From Morchella semilibera (lineage: Eukaryota > Ascomycota > Pezizomycetes > Pezizales > Morchellaceae): 64,000 nucleotides of DNA. A program made the translations under genes and the position numbers. Location: the NCBI GenBank assembly GCA_009192285.1, contig CM018607.1, forward strand, positions 1,673,736-1,737,735, given 5' to 3'. The notes below the pieces were generated by a model. The model ran no database searches, had not been told where the DNA came from, and saw nothing but the letters and a program-made list of their open reading frames with translations. Each line of letters begins with the position of its first letter. Position 1 is the stretch's first letter. Below are positions 38,476 to 58,274 of this stretch, piece by piece.

Positions 38476-41400
38476 CTAACTTTGTTGTATTTCTAGGCCC
38501 AGAGACGCATCACCAAATCCCGGCTTATCTTCAGCTTTCCCGCTCGCCGTCTTCAAATGGCTCTCATCAACATTGCAACTTCCGGAGACCCCCTCGCAAT
38601 AAGCTTCGTCAACTTCAAATTCCATGTAAATCCCGCCTCCAAGGTCAACCGGCCACCGAGGCCCCCAGAGCCGAACTAATCGAGCCATAAGCTTAAATTC
38701 GTCTTCATCAGCACACAGCGTACCGGAAAGACGGTCTCTACTTCTTCGCACCCAGAATTGAGTCCATTCCTCAAGTGTTGCCACACGTGAGTACGACCCA
38801 TTGATAGTGCTTGACCCGCCAGCTGCTTTGATCATTCTGTATATCTTGTCCAGTCGCTGGTCATATGCATCGCCTCTGTAGGTGTTGTGTAGGAGGTCTT
38901 CAGGGCCGCTCCATAAACTCGTACTAAAGTCTGAATCGGCCCATGAGCTAGAACGATTAAAGCGGCCTGGGTTACAACTAATAAGGCGGTCTACATCTCC
39001 CTGCATTTCCATTCCTATGTGTCGTGCGCGTGCGCGTGGTGGAGGAGCTGTGCCACCTGGATCGGCCCTCAGAACCTCCCAGATTCGGTGTATCATGATA
39101 ATGTCAAGGACAGTGTACCCATGGTTATCCTTAATTTCTAGATCAGTGCCCGAATCAATGAGTGCCTCAACGAGGTGAACATTATGGTGAATTGCCGCGC
39201 CAAATATCGGAGTACCACCGTAGTGGCTCCGGGCATTGACAAGTTGAGGGAATCTTCTAACGACCTGGATGATATATCTGCGAATATCGCCACTTCGCTC
39301 CTCAGGCTCCACACTCCAGAAATTTTGGATACGATGAAGCACAGTGCCGCCCTCACAGGGAGGCAACACTAATAACTTTTCCTTCTCATAAAAGTTTAGG
39401 AGGAAGTCAATCTTGCTAAGCCCAGTGTGCTGACTCCCTGTGATAAGCAACCTGAGATACTCGTCCCAATTCAATCCATTAACATGTCGTCCTGTATCCC
39501 GGTATATCTGAGCAGCGGTGTCGAAACAGTCATACATAAGGGCAGTTTCAAAGGGGGTCAAGTAGATCATTCGGCGCGGGAGCTTTATACCAAGACCTGC
39601 ATCGCCATACTGCAATAAGTCTCTATCGTTCAGGAGGCACCCGCGCTTTATGAGCTCTGAAACGTAAAAAGGATTCGACACTTTGACCGATTTTGCAAAT
39701 ACAACGGCTACATCGTCGCAGGTCGTGGCTCCATAATCCATAAAGAGGGAGAAGCATTCCATATCACCCAAACGCATTGCCCACCAGAGCGGTGGGTATG
39801 TGTTGTCGGATGTCGCAAAGAGACAGTCGGTGAAAAATGGATCCAGAACTAGCTGAATGATGTCGTACCTTCGGTATACAAATAATGCTACAAACCCGCT
39901 CTGCTGTATCCTTAGGCGGTGATCAGGGCACCAGAGCCGAGTAAAGTAGTCAAGCGTTTCATAAGTGCGAATGATTGTATAGCTGTGGTCGAATCCGTTT
40001 CGTTGTATAATATCCAACGGGTCAGATCTAGTTCCTGCGACGAAGTACATAGCTTCAAGCTGGGATGGGCTGAGTTGGCCTCCTTTATCGGCACAAGTCC
40101 ACAAAAGGAGGTTGAGGATATCGCCGGCAAGAAGTTCTGCAGCGGTGTCAATGTGCGGTATTCCAATGTGCCCGCCTAGCTCCAACAAAACTCTGACGGA
40201 TTCAAAGCTGTTTCGCAATATAGCTTTCATCATAGGATCACAGGGCTTCCCATCCAGTGGAGCTGGGGTCATTATAGCGTTTGGCACCTTTCTAATAGTC
40301 TGAACCACAACATCCAAGGCATCTTGTGGCTCAAAGGAGGACAAATCTTGGAGGCAAAATCTTTCAAATATTGGTATTGTGAAGGAAGTTTCCCCCGTGT
40401 GTGAAGGCATGCGGGACAACAACAGAAGAGCAGTATTACGATGCCCGTTCTTAAAAGCAAGACACAGAGGTGTCAGTCCGGTCTTGTTTTTGACTCGGTG
40501 TTCGCAGAGATTGTTGTCGATAAGGCCTCGCACAACCTCCTCCATACCAGTTGCTGCTGCAAAATGTATGATACGGTTTCCAGTAATTACCCCAAGGTCT
40601 TGATCAATATCTCTTATCAGGCCTTCCGACTCAGGGTCATAGTGATCAAGAAGAGATTTGACGAAAGCAAGTGCCCCCTCTGCGGATTCGGTATAGTCGC
40701 ACGTGTCGTGATTTCCACCTGGAAATATGCAGCCGTCACATGATTTTATCTTGTTGTGCGCTTTTCTTTTGATCCGTTCATAAGCTTCAGGGTCGATGGA
40801 TTTCAGCGTTTTAGAAGCCCCCGGGTCATTTTTTTGGACGTGTTCTTCCAGCCACTCAGCCACTGGAAGGTCTGGAGGGCACTCAGTGCTATGGGCCTGA
40901 TGAAATTGAACTACTATTCCTCGCGCTTCAGTGTGGCCAACTTTGCAGGCCTGAATCAACGTGGACATGGCGATTTTATAATCTCTCGGCGTCCCAAAAC
41001 CGTGGTAATAGCATAGAAAGAGCTGCCATAAAATAGATCCAGGAGTGGTTTCTTCAACCGCGTTATGGCTTGAATGGGCAATGTCTTTGATGCTGTTAAA
41101 GATTTTCTCACGTAATCGGTCATCGATAGTTGCCTTTCGCAAAAATGTCTATGGGAATATGCAGTCAGTAAGTGGAGCTTTTAATATATGGATAGTAGAA
41201 CACACTCTGATATCCACTAATTTTATCGGCCCCAGAAACCCTGGCTCAGGTGCTTTGGGTGGACAAGTTTTTAGATCCCTACCTTTTGTTAGAAACTGCA
41301 TTAGGTTCCTGCGGATTGGCCTTACCTGTCAAATGGAAGAGCTTGGCTGTATTCTTCGAATAAAGGAACCAGGTGCCGGGCTCGAGTCTCGTTGGGGCCC

Positions 41401-42428
41401 AAGGTAGCATTGAATATCTTCGTGGCGAACATCATCCCAAACTCTGATAGCGATAACTCCGATAAAGACTCCAGAGAAAGTGGGAGGAAGCAGCCGTCTC
41501 CCTTTAAATTCGAAACATCCTCATACGTCAGGGATGTGGTATCGCACCAGGATGCGAGCCATTTGAAGGGCGCATGGCCATCAGTAAGGACATACCATAC
41601 CACCAAACCAAACGAGTAAATGTCAGTTTTATATAATTCTTCGTGGCTCAGCCGTTCCTCTGCTTCAGGAGCACTCCAAGCCTTCGTCCCTCCTAATAGG
41701 AAGCCATGGGTATCTTCCTGCTTGAGGATCATGGAGCACCCGAAATCGGCAAGCTTCGCAATATATTTGCGCTGAGGATCAGGAAATATGAATATATTGT
41801 CGGGCTTGATGTCTGAATGAACAACGCCATGCTGATGAAGACGATCAAGGCCTTTAGCTATGTCGAGAAGAAGGCCCACCTTTTCCAAGATTGTTAGTCC
41901 CGGGTTTCCACGTATCAATCCGGATAGAGTTCCTTCGGCAGTTTCGAATTCCGGAGTAGGCCACATGTAGTTCCAGTTCTTCTCAATTGTTGGATGCGGT
42001 CCCGGAAACCACTGTATATCCTCCAGATTTGTGATGTTTGGATGATTCCGTATGGGTTCCCAGAGACAAATTCGTAATTCCGTGATAAGGCTACGGTAGA
42101 ATATCCTTTCGTTGAATTGATCGTCCCCCGGGAGTATCCGTGGGACTTTTGCTACCCCTTTATCTGAGAATTGTACGGCATTCGAAAAACCACCCGAGCC
42201 AAACATCTTCTTAGCTGCGCCTCCGTGTGAGTGTTCAAAATTGCTTTCTGGATCTTCTGGGACTGTTTTCCAAAAACCGTCATACAATCCAATGACGGTA
42301 AGGAAGTCATCATCGCAACGACTTAAAGATGTGGGCTTGATTTCCCCTGCAGTACTATCTCTGGGATGATCATGATAGTAGGAAGTCACGAAAGAGGGGG
42401 AGGAGGTATTAATAAAAGAAGAGCTCAT
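38476..42428 (-). CDS. Protein kinase / Sel1-like / ankyrin-repeat fusion
   Basis: Three exons on the minus strand: 42428-41326, 41278-41206 and 41148-38476, giving 1282 aa. The 47-nt intron (with CTAAC) and the 57-nt intron (with CTGAC) restore frame. Residues about 70-365 are a Ser/Thr-type kinase: glycine loop GSGGFS (77-82), Lys94 in VAKVPRI, catalytic HSDIKPDN (His204, Asp206, Asn211; Ser replaces the usual Arg), LADFGCS (Asp228), SAPE and DIYSFGLVVW. A single Sel1-like helical pair follows at about 430-472 (LFLCYYHGFGTPRDYKIAMS). Ankyrin repeats lie near 575-635 (TGNRIIHFAAATGMEEVV) and 1030-1085 (YGGTPIFGAAIHHN), with weak repeats between. All key catalytic residues are present. Such kinase-ankyrin fusions expand in filamentous fungi; a signalling or self/non-self role is inference. 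Confidence 0.88.
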
Positions 42429-44781
42429 TTCGGCCGCTAGTGTGTTTGCTTTGATAGAAACATAAGCACCTGGCGGGAACTTTGGACTTTTAATTTATAT
42501 AACCAGCCCCCCATAGAGATATCGGAGCTACAAACACATGCATAGTCATGAAAACGCCCAACAGGGGCTCAAGATACAGCTACTCTGCAAGTCCTCAAGC
42601 CAGGAGAATATTGGCTGGTCACTATACTGATTAGGTCCCGATGTTAACGAAATATCGCCCCCACACTCAGCCTACGAAGACACGCTACTGGAGGGATTTA
42701 CAAACGTAGATCAGTAAGCTACTCCCTAGCTACAATACCGTGTTGTACATATAAGCCCTAACGTTTCTTTTTGTAGATGTAGGTACTATGTGGCAATTAA
42801 GGGCTGAGGGGGGGCTTGTCGATAGCGAAACGATCTTGAGTTGAAATATGTGGACCATTTAGATCTCACCTGCCCGCATATGTGGGTTAAGCTTTGTTCA
42901 ACCACACATGTCAAAAGCCTACCCCTCATTCGCCCATCAAGCGAACGGCAAAAAAAAATGAGTCAGAACCTTCCATCTGCCTAAATTTTGCAGCCACACC
43001 CCCCCGCACGACCCCGAGTTCAAGAGATTTGATATGGTACCTAGGTAATCCATAGCCACATCGGCATCTGCACCATTCACCGGGAAAATGATGGCCAATG
43101 GGGTTGGAGGGGCCCAGCCCCAAGTTGACCGGAAATGATTCTGGAAGAGAACTACTGGCCTCCGATATCATTGGCTGTGGATTATATTATATGTGATGGG
43201 GCTGAGTGATATATGGTGATTAAACGAACGTTTTGTCTCGGGTTGGGGCCCTGACGTTCGAAATGGGGGTTCAGTGGGGTATTGGCTATACAGTTGACGG
43301 TTCCCAAGGCAGACATGGTAATATACTGTGGTGTATCAAGGCCTCAGCTAGCGCTGAAGACCCCAACCAATCCGGCCTATTCACTGTTGGAGAGGGCTCC
43401 GTGGTGAAAGGGGGAAAGAAAAACAGTCACGGTGTCCCCCGCTGGTACTTTTTGGTAGGGCTTTGGTGGCCGCAACTACTCTCTCAGGATTTCCCGTTGC
43501 TAAAACCGCTCGATACATAATCCATCTCTACAATACTACCGTGAGCAGATGCTACAGATCTAGTACCCTCACTTTTCTCCCCTTCCCCGGTTCTACATTC
43601 TCCGGTCTTTGCTTTGGGGTTGAGTACGCCTTGTCACGATCCGTCTTCGGGATATAACATTGAACCCGCACATGGCACATAGCTCATTAGATACCTACTT
43701 TCCGTATCTAAGGTCGAAAGCCTCGAAGGTGTTCCGACTATGGTTATATTGCCCATCTTTGAACTCCGTCTGGGGTGTACTATGGTAATATTGCACCCGT
43801 CTTTGAACTCCGTCTGGAGTGGACTATGGTCATATTGCACCCGTCTTTGAACTCCGTCTGGAGTGGACTATGGTTATATTGCACCCGTCTTTGAACTCCG
43901 TCTGGGGTGTACTGTGGTGCATGTATTTCTGAGCCTCGGTGTGCAATACAGTACAGCTCCCACCCTTATCAAATCGTCTATACGTCCCCCGAAAGGTCCC
44001 TACTGGTATAACTCGGGGGAACCGTGGTGCCACTTTGGGCTGTAGGCCAGGTGTAGTAACGGCTTTAGAGCCACCTGTCGTCGCAGGGACCCCATCTGGT
44101 ACCATGGCCAGCTTTATCTGTGTTTCTTAGTAGCTGTTAGTTGTACCATTAATCCGCCCGTACTGAAAGTCTGTCGTGAGAGGGTACATGTTCCGATCCG
44201 GGACACTGAAAAAAGCCACTAAGACGCATTTAACCATAAGCTTTTCGCGGCGCTAGGCTTTCTGTAATTAAGTATGTCTTTACATGTAGGGCGTCGGAAG
44301 GTGATGCGCACTCGATAGACTACCTGCCACGTGAAGTTGTCGCTCCCGGGATAGTATGCGCGCCAGGGACTAGCAAGAGGGAGTTATATACTCGAAACCT
44401 CCGCCCAGCAGCAGGTATTGGTATATTTGGTTCAATCGAGTAGTCGAGGTGCGCATCACCTGCAGCCGAGTACCAGGTGCAGGTTCATTAACCCGGTAAG
44501 TTCTTTCATATCCCTGCGCGCGCGTGCACTCATATACGCTTACTTAGTAGCTCGCACTAAGGCTGAAAGCTAGGGAGTCACTGTGCTTCGACTCCAATCA
44601 CTTCCTTAAGAGGTGTTGAATCTTGAGATTTTGTGGTGGGCTGGGATATTGGTGGTCCTGTTACTATTTCTACGCTACGCTTGAGTCTTCCGCCATGCAC
44701 GCAGACAAGACGGAATAGAAGACCTGAAGGCCCACAGTACCATTGATGCACCTACAAACGCAAGACACCCAGAAAGAAAAC
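42429..44781. other. Spacer of 2.4 kb with minisatellite
   Basis: Contains a 44-bp tandem repeat (43738-43911), TACATGTA at 44281 and short frames without coding character (42926-43171 minus, 43233-43520 plus). Confidence 0.5.
43738..43911. repeat. Minisatellite, four units of about 44 bp
   Basis: Copies begin at 43738 (42 nt), 43780, 43824 and 43868 (44 nt each) and differ at only a few positions. The shared core includes TTTGAACTCCGTCTGG. It lies in the spacer between the kinase-ankyrin and superoxide dismutase genes, with no coding frame of its own. Confidence 0.95.
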
Positions 44782-51060: not shown

Positions 51061-53225
51061 CGCAGTATGTACCTCCTGGGGGGGGATTCAGAAAATATAA
51101 AAAGAGAGAACGTATAGCCAGATACGTATTTACTGTGCTGCTTTGTGGGCTGTGGGAGACAATACTAACAGCAAGAACAATGATAAGCCGTGCGGACAAA
51201 GGAATACCAACCCCCCCCCCCACCTCTACTCCAGATTATGTAGCTGCATGTAGTAGATATGTAATTGGACTTTGGGGCGGTGAGTGAGGGTTTGCCTGCA
51301 GTGGGGAGGGGGGTTTGCAGTTGGGTTGGATCATGGGGTATCACTCGAGGCTTTGGCTGAGGGTATTGATTGATTGATGCTTCATGCGTGCATCTGAGGG
51401 GAGTGCTCTGCTCTAGTGACATCAGGCCTATGTGTAGTTGGTCGTGCGCGGGGTCTAGTCTATGTAGCAGTAACTGGAGCCCTGATGCATGCGTCCCCAG
51501 CTGTGTTGGTAGGTAGTCTAACTCTGGTGTCTTCCCCATTAATGCGCACTGCGGGATATGTATTCTAGTTCTCTCTCTATAGAACGTAACATAAACCGTG
51601 GCTTAAAATACTAGCCCCCCTTCTGTAGAGTATCTATCAACTGTACTGTCTGTAGCAGCGGAACAAACTCTTGTCGTATGCAGATCGAGGGGGTTTAGTA
51701 CCGTTATAGCACAATCCGTGGAAAAAGAGTAGTTAGTAGGGCCAGGATACACCGCGCACACAACCCGGCCCTGGCTCTGGGATTATATCTGTCCCGGCCA
51801 TGCCCCCTTTACCCACCCCTGTTCCGCATCGAGCGTGTTGGTTCCGTGCCCGCACACTGCAGTGCTGTCGGAGGAGAGAACCTGACGACATGCAAGCCTG
51901 ATGTTGTGCTGTGGGAGCCGCGGCTACGATCGGTCCGTGTTCCCGGCGATGCACACACACGCTTGGTGCCGTTCGGCGCTCGCTCGTGCATGGGACGGCT
52001 GTTTCCGCACTACATGCGCAGGCCCCCCGGGTCGGGGTTAATCTAGCACTAAGCTATAACTCCCGAGCTCATCAGCTGTTGGATGCAGCTGATTGACTGC
52101 CCGATATCCTCATCGACTGACCCCTGGGTAATCCTACTCATTGAAGCAGACCCTTGATCGTGGACCCTCCATGCAGTCGCTTTGGATTGCGTTGGGGGGG
52201 TGTGGTCTAGCTGGGAATACATGTATATATATACCCATAGCTATGGTAGCCCGCTGAAGGGTGTCCGAGGCCGGGAGGGAAATACAGCCATTATTCGTCA
52301 GTGCCGGAGGGACTATTGCTGTCCGTGGCGTGACGTGACTACATGTATGTATACATACTATGTTTCTTATTATATAGGTTATATACTTGATATATGCAGC
52401 AACCGCCTCACAAAGATTCTCAGGGCTGTGAGGAGCCTTCGTTTTGTTGTGGCTTCAAGTCAATCAACCAAGTCTCATGCTAGTGGCTATTCATAGAATA
52501 TAATCAGAGGATTGCTTACGATATTTGGTAGTCGCGCTGGTCCTGGAGTGGGCTATAGTATGAAACTACTACGGAATTTAGGAATTAAACCAGCATTATA
52601 ATTAGATATAGAGTACTGTACCAATGCCGTATTTGTAGTGATCCCATCCCTCCGTATAAGCTATATATATTGGAAGTGCAATATACAATACCCTTCAAGG
52701 AGACAACCCCGTGCAGTGCACACATTTGACAGCAAGTACATATAATATATATAGTTAAAGCTACTTATTACACGGTATTATTCTATCCAGAGTGCAATCT
52801 TCTATATTTTCCGTCCGTCGGGTTCTTTTGGGGTGTCAGGAGCTGTGAGCAAGGTCTAGCAGAGTCTTACTATAATTCTACTTTGCAGTTACTGCTGTTA
52901 TGTCCTCGTGTAATGCTAGAGGGGAGACCCGAATTGGTAGGGCGACCCATATATAGTAAATAATGCTATTGTAAACCGTGTCACTCCAGTTAATATGGTC
53001 GAAACAGTGTGTTCTGAATGTGCTGTTTGGTACGTAATATGTATACAAAGAGAGCACTCTACGGACAAATACTTGGGAACTCACTCACTCCCACTTTTAA
53101 AGCCCGGAGCACAATCTTTGTGCCTTTGTCTAACGATACCTTGCCTCTTGTCTCATGAAGCGGCAAGCTTGGAAAAATACAAAAGGGACATTCAAATCCG
53201 AGGAACGCGCCTGTTACTATCAGTT
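51061..53225. other. Spacer of 2.2 kb
   Basis: Promoter of the DUF5672 gene at the left, 3' flank of the histidine kinase at the right. A GC-rich patch lies around 51740-52060. TACATGTA at 52218 and 52340. No gene recognised. Confidence 0.45.
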
Positions 53226-56200
53226 CTAACCATGGATGTCTAGACGAGGTAGAAATGATATTACGGAGACATCATCATGGAAATTTTTCGCCGCCTCCTT
53301 TTCAAGAAATCTCTCAATGATTTCTCTTAAGGTGTCGTTGTTTAGTGGCTTTAGCGTGAAGTCATTCATCCCAGCCTCTCTTGCACGATCACGGTCACCG
53401 GCCATTTCTGTTGCAGTAACGGCGACAATTGGAAGATCCTTATAGGCGACTAAGCCAGGGTCTTCGGCCTTGCGGATTATCGCAGTAGTCTCGTAGCCAT
53501 CCTATTTATATTTTATAATAATTAGAAATGTGCGAATCATGCATGCGCTAAAATAGGGACAAACCAGTAACGGCATTTGAAGATCCATAAAGATAATATC
53601 CAAAGCCTTGAGCTCCCCTTTCTTCATTCTAGAGATTGCATTCTGTCCGTTAACTGCGACTTGTACTTTGCAGCCCATTCTCTCCATTCTCTTCGCAGTC
53701 ACAACCTGGTGTGACCAGTTATCTTCAACAATCAAGACATTAGTTCCCTCAATCGGGATCTTTACTTTCTTACTATGGTCATGTCTGATTGCAGAGTGTA
53801 AGTCACCGATCCGGAGAGCAACGCCCATGTCATGAGAGAGGCTGTCCTCCCTTCGTGGAATTGTTACTGGCGAGTTCTTTGGAGGCCGGAGACAAGGTAC
53901 TGAAAACCAGAAGATGGAGCCTTGGTCAACAATGGATTGACACCCAATATTCCCTCGAAGAATTGTAGCAAACTACCAATATTAGTAAGATTTTCCCATG
54001 GACATGCACGGAAGATATATACACACGCTTTTTGCGATAGCTAAGCCAAATCCTGTGCCATAGTGACCAGTTGAGATATCGGCAGCTGCAATTTCTTCAA
54101 AAGGAAGAAACAATTTCTTCGCATGATCTTCGGGGATTCCAATGCCAGTGTCCTATGACTGTTAGTTATATTGGCGTGACATCAGACAATGCAAGCACTA
54201 CCTTGACCTCAAATCTTAGCTCCAAAGACCCTTTTTGAACCTTCTTCGTCATAACCTTGAGACTAACGGTCCCCTTTGAAGTAAACTTGTATGCCTACCA
54301 AAAGGTTAGAATAAATATATGCAAAAGCACATAGTAGACCTGACAAACATTCGATAGTAGATTAATAATAACCCTCCGAATCTTGGCATCGTCGCCCTTG
54401 AGTAGTAGTTGTGTGCCATCGCCAAAGGCGCTATATATGACCTCTGTATCGTCAACCGTAAACTCGACACCTTCTTTTTTCATGCTATTCCTGAATAGTG
54501 TTTCCACATCTTGCACAAGGTGTTGCAAAACAAAAACATTTTGGTCAACTTTAAGGTCATTCGATTCGATTCTGTTGAAATCGATCAGGTCGTTGATAAA
54601 AAGGACTAAATCATTAGAATTTGTTTCCCTGATACTGAGAGGCGTAAGAGCTTACGAAGGGAGTTAACACCACTAAATATCTGGCGGACCAAAGATCTTT
54701 GCTCTTTGCCAGTCTGAATCTCATACAAGAGCTCTATAAAAGAGATAATACCTGCAACTGGCCTATTTAGAGGTAGGAACCATAATTAGTAATATGGAGC
54801 TAAGAAAAGTATGTTCTCTGGGGTTAATTGAGAGGTATGAAGTTTTTGACTTACGTTTTCAGGCCCCTGGATAAATTCATCAAAAATACCTTCCGTATGT
54901 CTGCGCTCCTAGAGATCTCCTGTTCTCTATTCGCACGTTCTGTCTGCTCTACAATCACGGTGAGACCTGCCAGTAGATTTTCTTTCGTTTCCGCGTCTTC
55001 CCATAAAGGAGTAGCCTTGAGGTCGAATATGCGTTGTTCACCGTCTACGAGCAGGCCCATTGTACCCCTTTGTGGAAGTTTTGTAATAAAAAGCTTGTTC
55101 GTACACCACTCATCATATGGCATTCTCTCAGAAAAGTCGGGACGCCAGATGTCCAGGCGGGCGATCCAATCGTGTCCATTATTTCTGGTTGATTCGATCG
55201 GACTATTAGATTTATCTAAATCCAGAGTTTAATAAAGAGATTACAAACCCAACAAGTGACGCTATGTCTTTTCCCAGCACTTTCCGGCACGCTTTGTTCG
55301 TAATGCAAATTTCCCCATCTGGGGTGATACATGCAAATGAATACTCCATTTCATCAAGGATCATTTCTTTTAGCTTGGACACTCTTTCGACAACATCAGC
55401 CCCAGTAGTTCCGGCAGCGACGCTTTGCTTTGCCGATGGTTTACGGTTTGCTCCTCTCAGGGGCGGATTGAATTCTGCGTCAACATCATCTGAGTTTGGG
55501 ACAATGGACAGCGCTATGAATCCTTCAGGATTCTTGGAGCTACTATTGCCCTTGAGTATAGACATATACAGTTCACCTCCAAGCAACTCCCCATCCTGTT
55601 TGGTAATGATTATCGGGATCTTTTCCTTGCGAGAATACTCATCAATTCTTTTAACATCTTCGGTATCATTAACCTCAGTGTCTCCGGAGTAATCATCATC
55701 CCTTTTGCCTGTATCGTAGAATTCAGAGTAAGCACTAGTATCGTAGCCATATGTGTCTAGCTCTTTCTGCTTCTGGATCTTCGCCTTCACAGTCTTGAGT
55801 ACTTGGGCAAGAGAAATCCATTTCCTCATATCGATTCGTGCCAGATCCATTGGCAAATCCTCCAGATGGAATCCCTCAATCCCTTCATCATGCTCAAGTA
55901 TCCCCTGCGAGCCTGTTGATGAATATGAACCCTTCCCACCGGTTAAACGACTAGTAGAAATGATAGGTGGAGGTTGGGACGTGGGGTCGCCTAAATCGAT
56001 TAGAGAAGCACGCCCCAGTAGGCGTGTCGCTGATCTATTTGCATATACCACCACGTTACTGTCGGAGATCAAAATTTGAGGAGTCGGTGAATTATCCAGA
56101 AGTATGGAAGGATTAAGCCCTGTTGGTAATGAAATAGAGGTAGGTCTTTTCATATTTATAGAAGACCGTTTTGCGATAGCAGCTGCGGTTGGGGAGTTTT

Positions 56201-56426
56201 TCCCTTGGTAACCACAGTTAGGGCAGATCGCGATAATAGTCCTATTCAAGGGGACATCTCCCTCATCATTTTCAAGTCGCATCTTCTCATGTTTTTTCCC
56301 GAGAAATCCCTGCTCTTGCGCAGATTCACAGTTTTTGTCAGGAGGCACGCTGTGAGAACGGTCTAGGGAATGGAAGAAAGGACTCGAGGAAGAATCAACT
56401 ACCTTGATCAGCATATTGGAACACAT
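53226..56426 (-). CDS. Hybrid histidine kinase lacking the phospho-accepting His
   Basis: Eight exons on the minus strand: 56426-55249, 55202-54855, 54762-54656, 54605-54349, 54294-54202, 54152-54027, 53972-53565 and 53501-53226, giving 930 aa. Introns are 46-92 nt. PAS-like regions lie near 115-140 (QILISDSNVVVYANRSA) and 360-440 (CITPDGEICITNKACRKVLG). The H box reads NLSRGLKTP instead of the usual NMSHEIRTP, so Arg505 replaces the histidine. The ATPase boxes look intact: NLLSN (Asn630) followed by AYKFT, DTGIGIPEDH (662-671) and GTGFGLAIAK (693-702). The C-terminal receiver has VLIVEDN, the phospho-acceptor Asp833 in FMDLQMP, AVTATEMAGD and the LKPL lysine. It would normally feed the HOG/Ypd1 phosphorelay; without the His it may act as a regulatory pseudokinase or phosphate sink (inference). 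Confidence 0.9.
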
Positions 56427-57434
56427 TCTTCACCGATACAAAAGAATGGTCGGTGAACGAGGTCTAGGTAGATAATTCCAGAGGCGTAGTAGACAAGAAG
56501 GGCCGACCGAACGATGTCTCTCGAGCCAGCGAGAGTATCAAATTCGGGAGGAAAAAGCTTTCCCTTTCTCACTTTCCCGAGGTGTATGGGTTAATATTGG
56601 GCTAAAGCTTGAGCAGAATTGGATTGAATCCAGGACAAAGGCGTGATTGCTGTTATACAATTAGACTTGTGAATGGTAAGTTGGTGAAAATGCCACCTGT
56701 CTGAAAATACGTGTCGTGCCATGTAACAAGCAGGAACTTGACAAAGATACAAGTACATGTGTGTATATGTCTTGTCGCTTTGTATCTGACTGGAGAGGGG
56801 ACTGGACAGTACGGGACTTAGTTGATTGACTGACCACAGAACAAGAGAGCTGTCTTTCCATATAAGACAGTCACATATATATTATATGTGCGTATCGGAC
56901 AAATAGTCCTAGGCACTAAACGAGTGATACATCATGCATGCGCCATGCAAGATTATATAAGCAGAGAAACACAAGGGTGAGTGATACTTCATGTCACAGC
57001 ATCTCATGCCCTCTCTCCGTATTTGTAACCTGAAGTTACATATATAAAATATTTGCTGGAATATTCTTTGAGATTATAAAGACAAATTTCATAGATTACT
57101 TATATAATTATGTGCATGCATAGATGCACAATCCCTCTCGGCCGAGATACATACGTAGGCTTAGTGATCGTGGTGATAAAAGAAGCTAGCTAGAGGAGCC
57201 TCATCTAAGATGTTAATTGCGTCATTGTGAATTTCAAATCAACAAACCGCCGGCCCTTTTCTGTAATATTCTACAATATTGAAGCTATTGGTGCAATCCA
57301 AGCCTTACAAAATATAAACAATAAATTGTTATTTATACCTCGCATTCCCACCAAGTTTACTCTCAGTAGCATACACATCCTATATAATTCTCGTCCTGCG
57401 TTCAATTGATCAAGTACTACATCAGTCTTCAACA
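56427..57434. other. Divergent promoter region
   Basis: One-kilobase AT-rich spacer between the divergently transcribed histidine kinase and the short-chain dehydrogenase. Nothing else recognised. Confidence 0.5.
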
Positions 57435-58274
57435 ATGGCCGCCATTAAACCTCTCGCTATCATAGCCGGTGTAGGTCCAGGAACCGGAGCCTCTATCGCT
57501 CTAAAATTCGCCCGCGAATACACTGTGGTCCTTCTATCACGCACTGCTGCCTCCTTTGATTCAGTTGTCTCCGAGATCCAATCAAACGGTGGACAAGCCT
57601 ACGGAATCCCGACCGACATATCTAGCGAAAAAAGCGTGAAGGATGCATTCGCACAAATTAAGTCAAAACATACGGATACACCTGTAGCTGCTGCAATCTT
57701 CAATGCCGCTGGTGGATTTGTCAAAAAGCCATTTTTAGAAGTTACAGTGGAGGAATGGGATGGGACTTGGGCCGTTAATGGGTTTGTATTCATGATCTTA
57801 TTAACAGAGATGACTGCTAATACCTATGACAGTCATGGAGCTTTCCTTTTCTCTCAGTCAACTCTTCCTCTTCTATCAGCAAGCACTCATCTTCCTCACC
57901 CGCCAACATTGATCTTTACCGGTGCAACCGCATCTGTCAAGTCTTCAGCACTTTTTACAACATTTGCCACGGGGAAATTTGCACTAAGAGCACTCAGTCA
58001 GTCTCTTGCTAGAGAATTTGGACCCAAAGGAGTCCATGTTTCTCATGCAATAATTGACGGAGTGATTGATATTCCGAGGACCAAGGGGTGGTTAACTGAG
58101 GTCCCTGATGCCAAGATTGGCTCTGATGCGGTAGGTCCCCTCTCAAAGTAAATTAAGAGTGTAGGGACGAGCTGACAGTACCAGATTGCGGATGCATACT
58201 GGCATTTGCATACGCAGCCTAGGACAGCGTTTACTTGGGAAATTGATATCAGGCCGTATGTCGAAAAATGGTAG
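57435..58274 (+). CDS. Short-chain dehydrogenase/reductase with Phe in place of catalytic Tyr
   Basis: Three exons, 57435-57781, 57833-58130 and 58185-58274, 244 aa. The NAD(P) loop GVGPGTGASIALKF and the NAAG motif place it in the classical SDR fold. The Ser-containing strand is IFTGATASVKSSA. The usual YxxxK is FATGK, so the catalytic Tyr is Phe; this is seen in one SDR branch whose members keep the FAxGKFALR block. The C-terminus AYWHLHTQPRTAFTWEIDIRP and the ending EKW are typical of that fungal branch. The first intron (51 nt) is a multiple of three without a stop codon, so an unspliced transcript would still be open. The substrate is unknown. Confidence 0.9.

Follow-up and report, generated by a model that had tools for sequence, protein, structure and literature searches.

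In histidine kinases (HKs) of the HisKA type, the substrate side consists of the phospho-accepting His and the adjacent acidic residue, which share a helix, and the ATP domain is the enzyme side. Fungal hybrid histidine kinases (HHKs) are usually counted as sensors from their domain content. PAS domains are reported for HHK classes IV, V, IX and XI (PMC6001611; this and the other PMC sources are cited from excerpts). Histidine kinases without the acceptor His are already known in bacteria, archaea and plants, as far as the excerpts of four sources describe them (PMC12189002, PMC11481889, PMC11784639, PMC7402358). DivL is an inactive pseudo-HK that toggles CckA, RetS and GacS form a heterodimer of HKs (both in PMC12189002), and heterodimers of ETR1 with His-less ethylene receptors have been described (PMC7402358). 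According to the accessible text of two reviews, the H box "usually" holds the His (PMC4965123, PMC6944256), a wording which implies that exceptions are already known, so that a His-less fungal HHK may be in print. Our literature search, with most subscription journals outside its reach and the retrieved papers available in part, found no fungal HHK described as lacking this residue.

The window analyzed here, a stretch of 64,000 nucleotides from Morchella semilibera, contains an HHK-like gene on the minus strand (53226 to 56426). Read from 56426 to 53226, it has eight exons totaling 2,793 nt including the stop codon and encodes 930 amino acids with no internal stop, as expected from the sequence-only reading, in which all exon joins kept the frame. 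The gene call relies on this in-frame splice model, on Pfam matches to HisKA, HATPase_c and Response_reg, and on the finding of a single copy. All seven introns are of the GT...AG type, each with a CTAAY branch-like motif, which in intron 1 is located only 7 nt from the intron end. The domain order is PAS-like regions, HisKA, HATPase_c and receiver. In the spliced protein, HisKA (PF00512) scored 39.8 bits with a cut-off of 26.9, and HATPase_c (76.2 bits) and Response_reg (71.9 bits) were also above their cut-offs. The N-terminus showed PAS-like segments only and no further domain in Pfam or in the alignment to an HHK on contig C3 described below, with the PAS_8 and PAS models giving weak matches below cut-off.

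Exon 1 (55249 to 56426; this and the following features are on the minus strand) encodes the N-terminal region with a PAS-like segment at residues 109-148, as suggested by the weak PAS_8/PAS matches and the alignment to C3. Exon 2 (54855 to 55202) contains a second PAS-like segment, recognized from the C3 alignment and by eye, and the beginning of HisKA, which includes the altered H box. Intron 2 (54763 to 54854) splits the H-box Thr codon after its second base, and exon 3 (54656 to 54762) supplies the remainder of the box and the HisKA helices; both were placed by the splice model. From the splice model, Pfam and column scoring, exon 4 (54349 to 54605) holds the end of HisKA, the start of HATPase_c and the first part of the N box, and exon 5 (54202 to 54294) continues HATPase_c with the second part of the N box. 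The G1, F and G2 boxes lie in exon 6 (54027 to 54152; splice model and column scoring), behind which comes intron 6 (53973 to 54026; splice model). Exon 7 (53565 to 53972) contains the end of HATPase_c, the linker and the start of the receiver with its acidic pair and phospho-acceptor Asp. The remainder of the receiver with its conserved Thr and Lys, and the C-terminus, are encoded by exon 8 (53226 to 53501; splice model and column scoring). In the neighborhood, a short-chain dehydrogenase-like ORF adjoins the gene (57318 to 58151, plus strand), and a Ser/Thr-kinase-like ORF and then a long, ankyrin-repeat-like one occupy 38476 to 42494 (minus strand); both assignments were made by eye only.

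The H box of the window protein is NLSRGLKTP (residues N502 to P510). It is encoded as TCC AGG GGC CTG AAA AC|G CCA (S-R-G-L-K-T-P), with Arg505 as AGG at 54868-54866 (minus strand), which confirms the earlier observation of an Arg in place of the phospho-accepting His. The next residue, Gly506, replaces the conserved Glu, and the protein thus has neither a phosphorylatable His nor an acidic residue after the acceptor position. According to the splice model, the column scoring and the relatives, the replaced His-Glu pair corresponds to AGG GGC at 54863 to 54868 (minus strand). To place these residues, we compared the protein with the best 80 of 165 matching loci in genome contigs, all with bacterial titles, and with two loci in viral contigs. 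Of these 82 fetched relatives, 81 were used and one (L070) was left out, having no frame covering 80% of the transmitter. Among these listed matches, the acceptor column is His in 80 of 81 relatives, followed by Glu or Asp in 80 of 81, and the His-Glu pair is present in 78 of 81. Two bacterial hybrid kinases among the relatives depart at this site: one from a Desulfobacterales MAG (L100, JAGXLR010000086.1) has a Gln at the acceptor position (NMGQEIRTP), and another (L058) has His-Val instead of His-Glu. Reading by eye or by pattern showed His-Glu kept in the H box at every one of the 11 further distinct HHK loci that the searches of the same genome brought up.

No His is present between residues 404 and 572 of the window protein, hence there is no shifted acceptor within the HisKA helices. 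We also searched the three minus-strand frames from 53000 to 57500 for an alternative H box (Ser/Thr/Cys-His-acid or His-acid-x-Arg/Lys) and found none, the sole pattern match being an SHD in the linker before the receiver. Neither alternative splicing nor another frame supplying a His-Glu box was found at the gene, nor a second copy or allele with the His in the same genome, where the gene was found once.

Five of the six bases of AGG GGC differ from any pair of His-Glu codons, and a direct conversion takes five base substitutions. If an ancestral TCC CAC GAG CTG is assumed, two substitutions and two compensating indels would offer an alternative route. Five substitutions, or two with two indels, imply that several events lie behind the H-box change, unless it arose by one complex mutation. 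Under neutral substitution, the probability that the gene stays intact, counting stops and splice losses only, would be 0.30, 0.09 and 0.0025 at 0.01, 0.02 and 0.05 substitutions per site, respectively. When stops alone were simulated, the values were 0.36, 0.16 and 0.008 at the same distances, and adding indels at one tenth of the substitution rate made the probability far smaller. With the ancestral codons assumed, either route to the present H box would be hard to fit in before neutral decay broke the frame, again unless a single complex mutation was involved.

The remainder of the catalytic machinery is in place, as the sequence-only reading had stated for the TP, the N, G1 and G2 boxes and the receiver Asp. 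We observed the H-box TP, the N (NLLSNAYKFT), G1 (DTGIGI), F (LFLPF) and G2 (GTGFGL) boxes and, in the receiver, the ED pair, the Asp of MDLQMP, the Thr and the Lys (LKP), that is, the D-D-K signature. No Asn, Asp or Gly of the ATP boxes and no receiver active-site residue is lost; these comparisons show that the complete set of predicted ATP-binding and receiver residues is kept.

We called a column near-invariant when at least 90% of the 81 relatives agreed, which gave 42 in the transmitter and 22 in the receiver. The window protein departs from 10 of the 42 transmitter columns (M19L, H21R, E22G, R24K, N28A, G32S, L68I, Q130R, Q189E and L203F) and from 2 of the 22 receiver columns. With these departures, Gly506 (E22G) among them, the suggestion that the H-box His was the lone departure does not hold. 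The 11 paralogues have 0 to 12 transmitter departures each and 67 in all, as scored on unspliced frame pieces covering 34 to 42 columns, so that a few may be intron edges. None of the 67 falls on the His or the Glu (the box of the C9 paralogue was uncovered and read by eye), and N28A is common to the window protein and the C3 HHK. Ten random transmitter departures would include both the His and the Glu with a chance of 0.052. In the receiver, the paralogues depart at 1 to 6 of the 22 columns, a comparison biased by the use of the query's own receiver stretch as a search pattern, which fixes columns 55-62. We therefore rejected the low count of the window protein as a sign of special constraint. 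With these eight columns left out, the window protein still has 2 departures and the 11 paralogues have 0 to 3, which makes its receiver ordinary rather than specially conserved.

The fungal genome searched covers 56.8 Mb in 23 contigs and contains at least 11 other distinct HHK loci, with those on C9 and C10 counted once; this is a lower bound, as the genome searches score the best candidates only. C9 and C10 (L043 and L044) are of nearly equal length and identical over 2 kb at a phytochrome-type HHK (PHY, 94.4 bits), and C12 and C13 have receiver matches of equal score; both pairs correspond to redundant or haplotype contigs. Another locus, L040:4236-6881 (G000:C21), is an 882-aa open HHK frame in which Pfam placed MEDS, the methanogen/methylotroph sensory domain (76.2 bits), before PAS_3, HisKA, HATPase_c and a receiver. 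The search for Hpt (Ypd1-like) proteins gave one match, on C6 (36.3 bits). When the genome was searched exon by exon, the split HisKA of the window gene was missed, its HATPase_c piece reached 34.9 bits, when the top-scoring pieces of the other HHK loci ranged from 50.9 to 108.8, and its receiver piece scored 30.2 bits, or 61.3 with its neighbors.

The nearest relative of the window gene in this genome is probably the C3 HHK (G000:C3, about 142-147 kb; L039), judging from the N-terminal half and the gene structure. An alignment of 444 columns at 22% (E 1.6e-8) joins residues 68-481 of the window protein to the N-terminus of the C3 protein. When 13 loci were searched for this half, no locus but C3 had an E below 1, the other 12 being no better than E 2. 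The H-box intron interrupts the same Thr codon in the same phase (after the second base) in both genes, and its position is absent from the 10 other paralogues, of which those on C16, C4 and C9 have it elsewhere and the remaining seven read through the box. A second shared intron, again with the same position and phase, lies behind the G2 box (GLAIAKS|F in the window gene and GLTISKN|L in C3); nine of the 10 other paralogues read through this site, the tenth (C9) being outside the scan output. The two proteins are thus alike in their HisKA-HATPase-receiver order, N-terminal half and two intron positions. They differ in that C3 has a strong PAS_3 match (47.2 bits), which the window protein does not have, and departs at 3 of 42 near-invariant transmitter columns vs 10. 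The C3 H box is SHEIRTP, with the His kept. Together with the shared N-terminal half and the two intron positions, this suggests that the window gene is a diverged C3-like paralogue which lost its acceptor after the split. The tree of the catalytic cores, built from the 12 in-genome HHK cores and the first 25 of the 82 fetched bacterial and viral-contig loci, does not group the window protein with C3 (supports of 22 and 35), and it neither supports nor excludes the pairing. C3 is also absent from the six cores most identical to the window core, which scores 122 bits with C3 and with the C21_1873k HHK alike. The branch of the window core is the longest of the 12 HHK cores (1.83), with low tree support around it.

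The window protein is without the acceptor His and Glu, and because both are gone, it would not autophosphorylate at the H box. By sequence, it presents as a pseudo-HK, with no acceptor His and the rest of the HK fold conserved, and would best be classed as a fungal HHK paralogue that has degenerated rather than as an active HHK. The substrate half (His and Glu) appears lost and the enzyme half (the ATP domain) kept, a pattern which fits action in trans. We consider it an even proposition that the gene, a paralogue of a PAS-bearing HHK, is degenerate in catalysis yet maintained, and that its product acts in trans with a partner HHK. The HisKA helices of the window protein would provide the contact with an HHK that has the His, most plausibly C3, which is the best partner candidate from relatedness only. 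In such a mixed dimer, its ATP domain could phosphorylate the His of the partner or set the partner's kinase/phosphatase balance, under the control of its own PAS input, and the phosphate would then pass through the receivers to Ypd1. For this maintained paralogue count the open eight-exon frame, the seven spliceable introns, the Pfam scores above cut-off, the neutral-decay bound, the joint loss of His and Glu while the ATP-box and receiver active-site residues stand, the relation to C3, the one Hpt (Ypd1-like) match in the genome, and the precedents of DivL with CckA, RetS with GacS, CCNA_03265, RdmS and the His-less ethylene receptors. Against it count the longest branch, the 10 of 42 departures, the low exon-search scores and the pairing with C3 unsupported by the core tree. 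The window gene and C3 form a named pair, which makes the mixed-dimer idea directly testable. That fungi possess a conserved class of donor-only HHKs, with Arg-Gly for His-Glu, serving as the second subunit of mixed dimers and giving the Ypd1 relay an extra PAS input, is a wider and rather doubtful proposal.

It is unlikely, though worth serious consideration, that constraint relaxed once the gene had been duplicated and that its function has been lost or is being lost, the H box being an early casualty, with no signaling role left. Such relaxed constraint would also fit the branch length, the greatest among the 12 HHK cores, and the 10 changed transmitter columns, and random departures would include both His and Glu at 0.052. 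However, 930 codons are free of stops and frameshifts, all seven introns keep GT...AG, the ATP-box and receiver catalytic residues are kept, and the probability of an intact gene at d = 0.05 is 0.0025, even counting only stops and splice losses. The sequence-only reading had argued that a gene decaying at random would lose more than one site. This argument stands for the frame, the ATP boxes and the receiver, and gains from the probabilities of intactness at 0.02 and 0.05; it is weakened by the loss of the Glu, the other transmitter departures, the branch length and the chance value.

We find it less probable still that the protein is a phosphate sink, in which the intact receiver would take phosphate back from Ypd1, lower the Ypd1-P pool and favor HOG activation. 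Its receiver has the active-site residues for this and matches Sln1 receiver chains, including 2r25_B (E 3.4e-13); 2r25 is the Sln1-Ypd1 complex. Drk1 has been reported to dephosphorylate Ypd1 (cited in the excerpts of PMC11253588 and PMC10512271). However, the authors of PMC3848655 (excerpt) concluded that a CaNik1 variant with H510Q and no HAMP domains had no effect on Ssk1 phosphorylation in yeast, a result which makes a pure receiver sink less likely, and a sink alone would leave the retained ATP boxes unexplained.

There is little probability that the protein phosphorylates another residue or protein, such as Ser504, Thr509 or an external target. The ATP boxes are intact, and Ser-Thr kinase activity has been reported in ethylene receptors without the His (PMC7402358, excerpt); however, the Glu beside the acceptor is gone too, and the tyrosine autophosphorylation of RdmS was later revised by its authors as unspecific (PMC11784639, excerpt). 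Least probable of all is that the H box was misassembled or its bases miscalled. Such an error could draw on the GGGG run at this site and on a path from the assumed TCC CAC GAG CTG by two substitutions and a pair of indels (a deletion and an insertion) inside 12 nt (by eye), but frame-keeping compensating indels are unlikely as errors and the H-box stretch, over 651 bases, matches only itself in its own genome.

Among the described systems, RdmS and MsmS of Methanosarcina are not known to have a fused receiver. They resemble the window protein in lacking an H box, RdmS binding and hydrolyzing ATP without autokinase activity, and differ from it in that the H-box region is missing as a whole (PMC11784639, excerpt). 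The chains of RetS and DivL match the window protein at E 7.4e-24 and E 1.9e-10, respectively. DivL of Caulobacter has a Tyr at the acceptor site and differs in being bacterial. The likeness lies in its HK-like build, with no kinase activity of its own, and in the control it exerts over a separate HK (PMC12189002, excerpt). RetS of Pseudomonas is similarly a hybrid HK regulating another HK, GacS, through a heterodimer (same source); it differs in that its control includes its own dephosphorylating action. The Caulobacter hybrid kinase CCNA_03265 has an HK domain without the conserved His and keeps the receiver Asp, although its authors raise a displaced His on the same helix as an option (PMC11481889, excerpt), for which the window protein has no counterpart at residues 404-572. 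If the in-trans reading is true, the fungal Ypd1 relay, which controls HOG and the fungicide response, would also be shaped by mixed HHK dimers of the kind known from bacteria and plants. The plant ethylene receptors with divergent HK domains differ in being membrane ethylene sensors with more catalytic boxes degenerate than in the window protein. They resemble it in being eukaryotic and without the conserved His, and they join heterodimers (PMC7402358, excerpt), as proposed here for the window protein.
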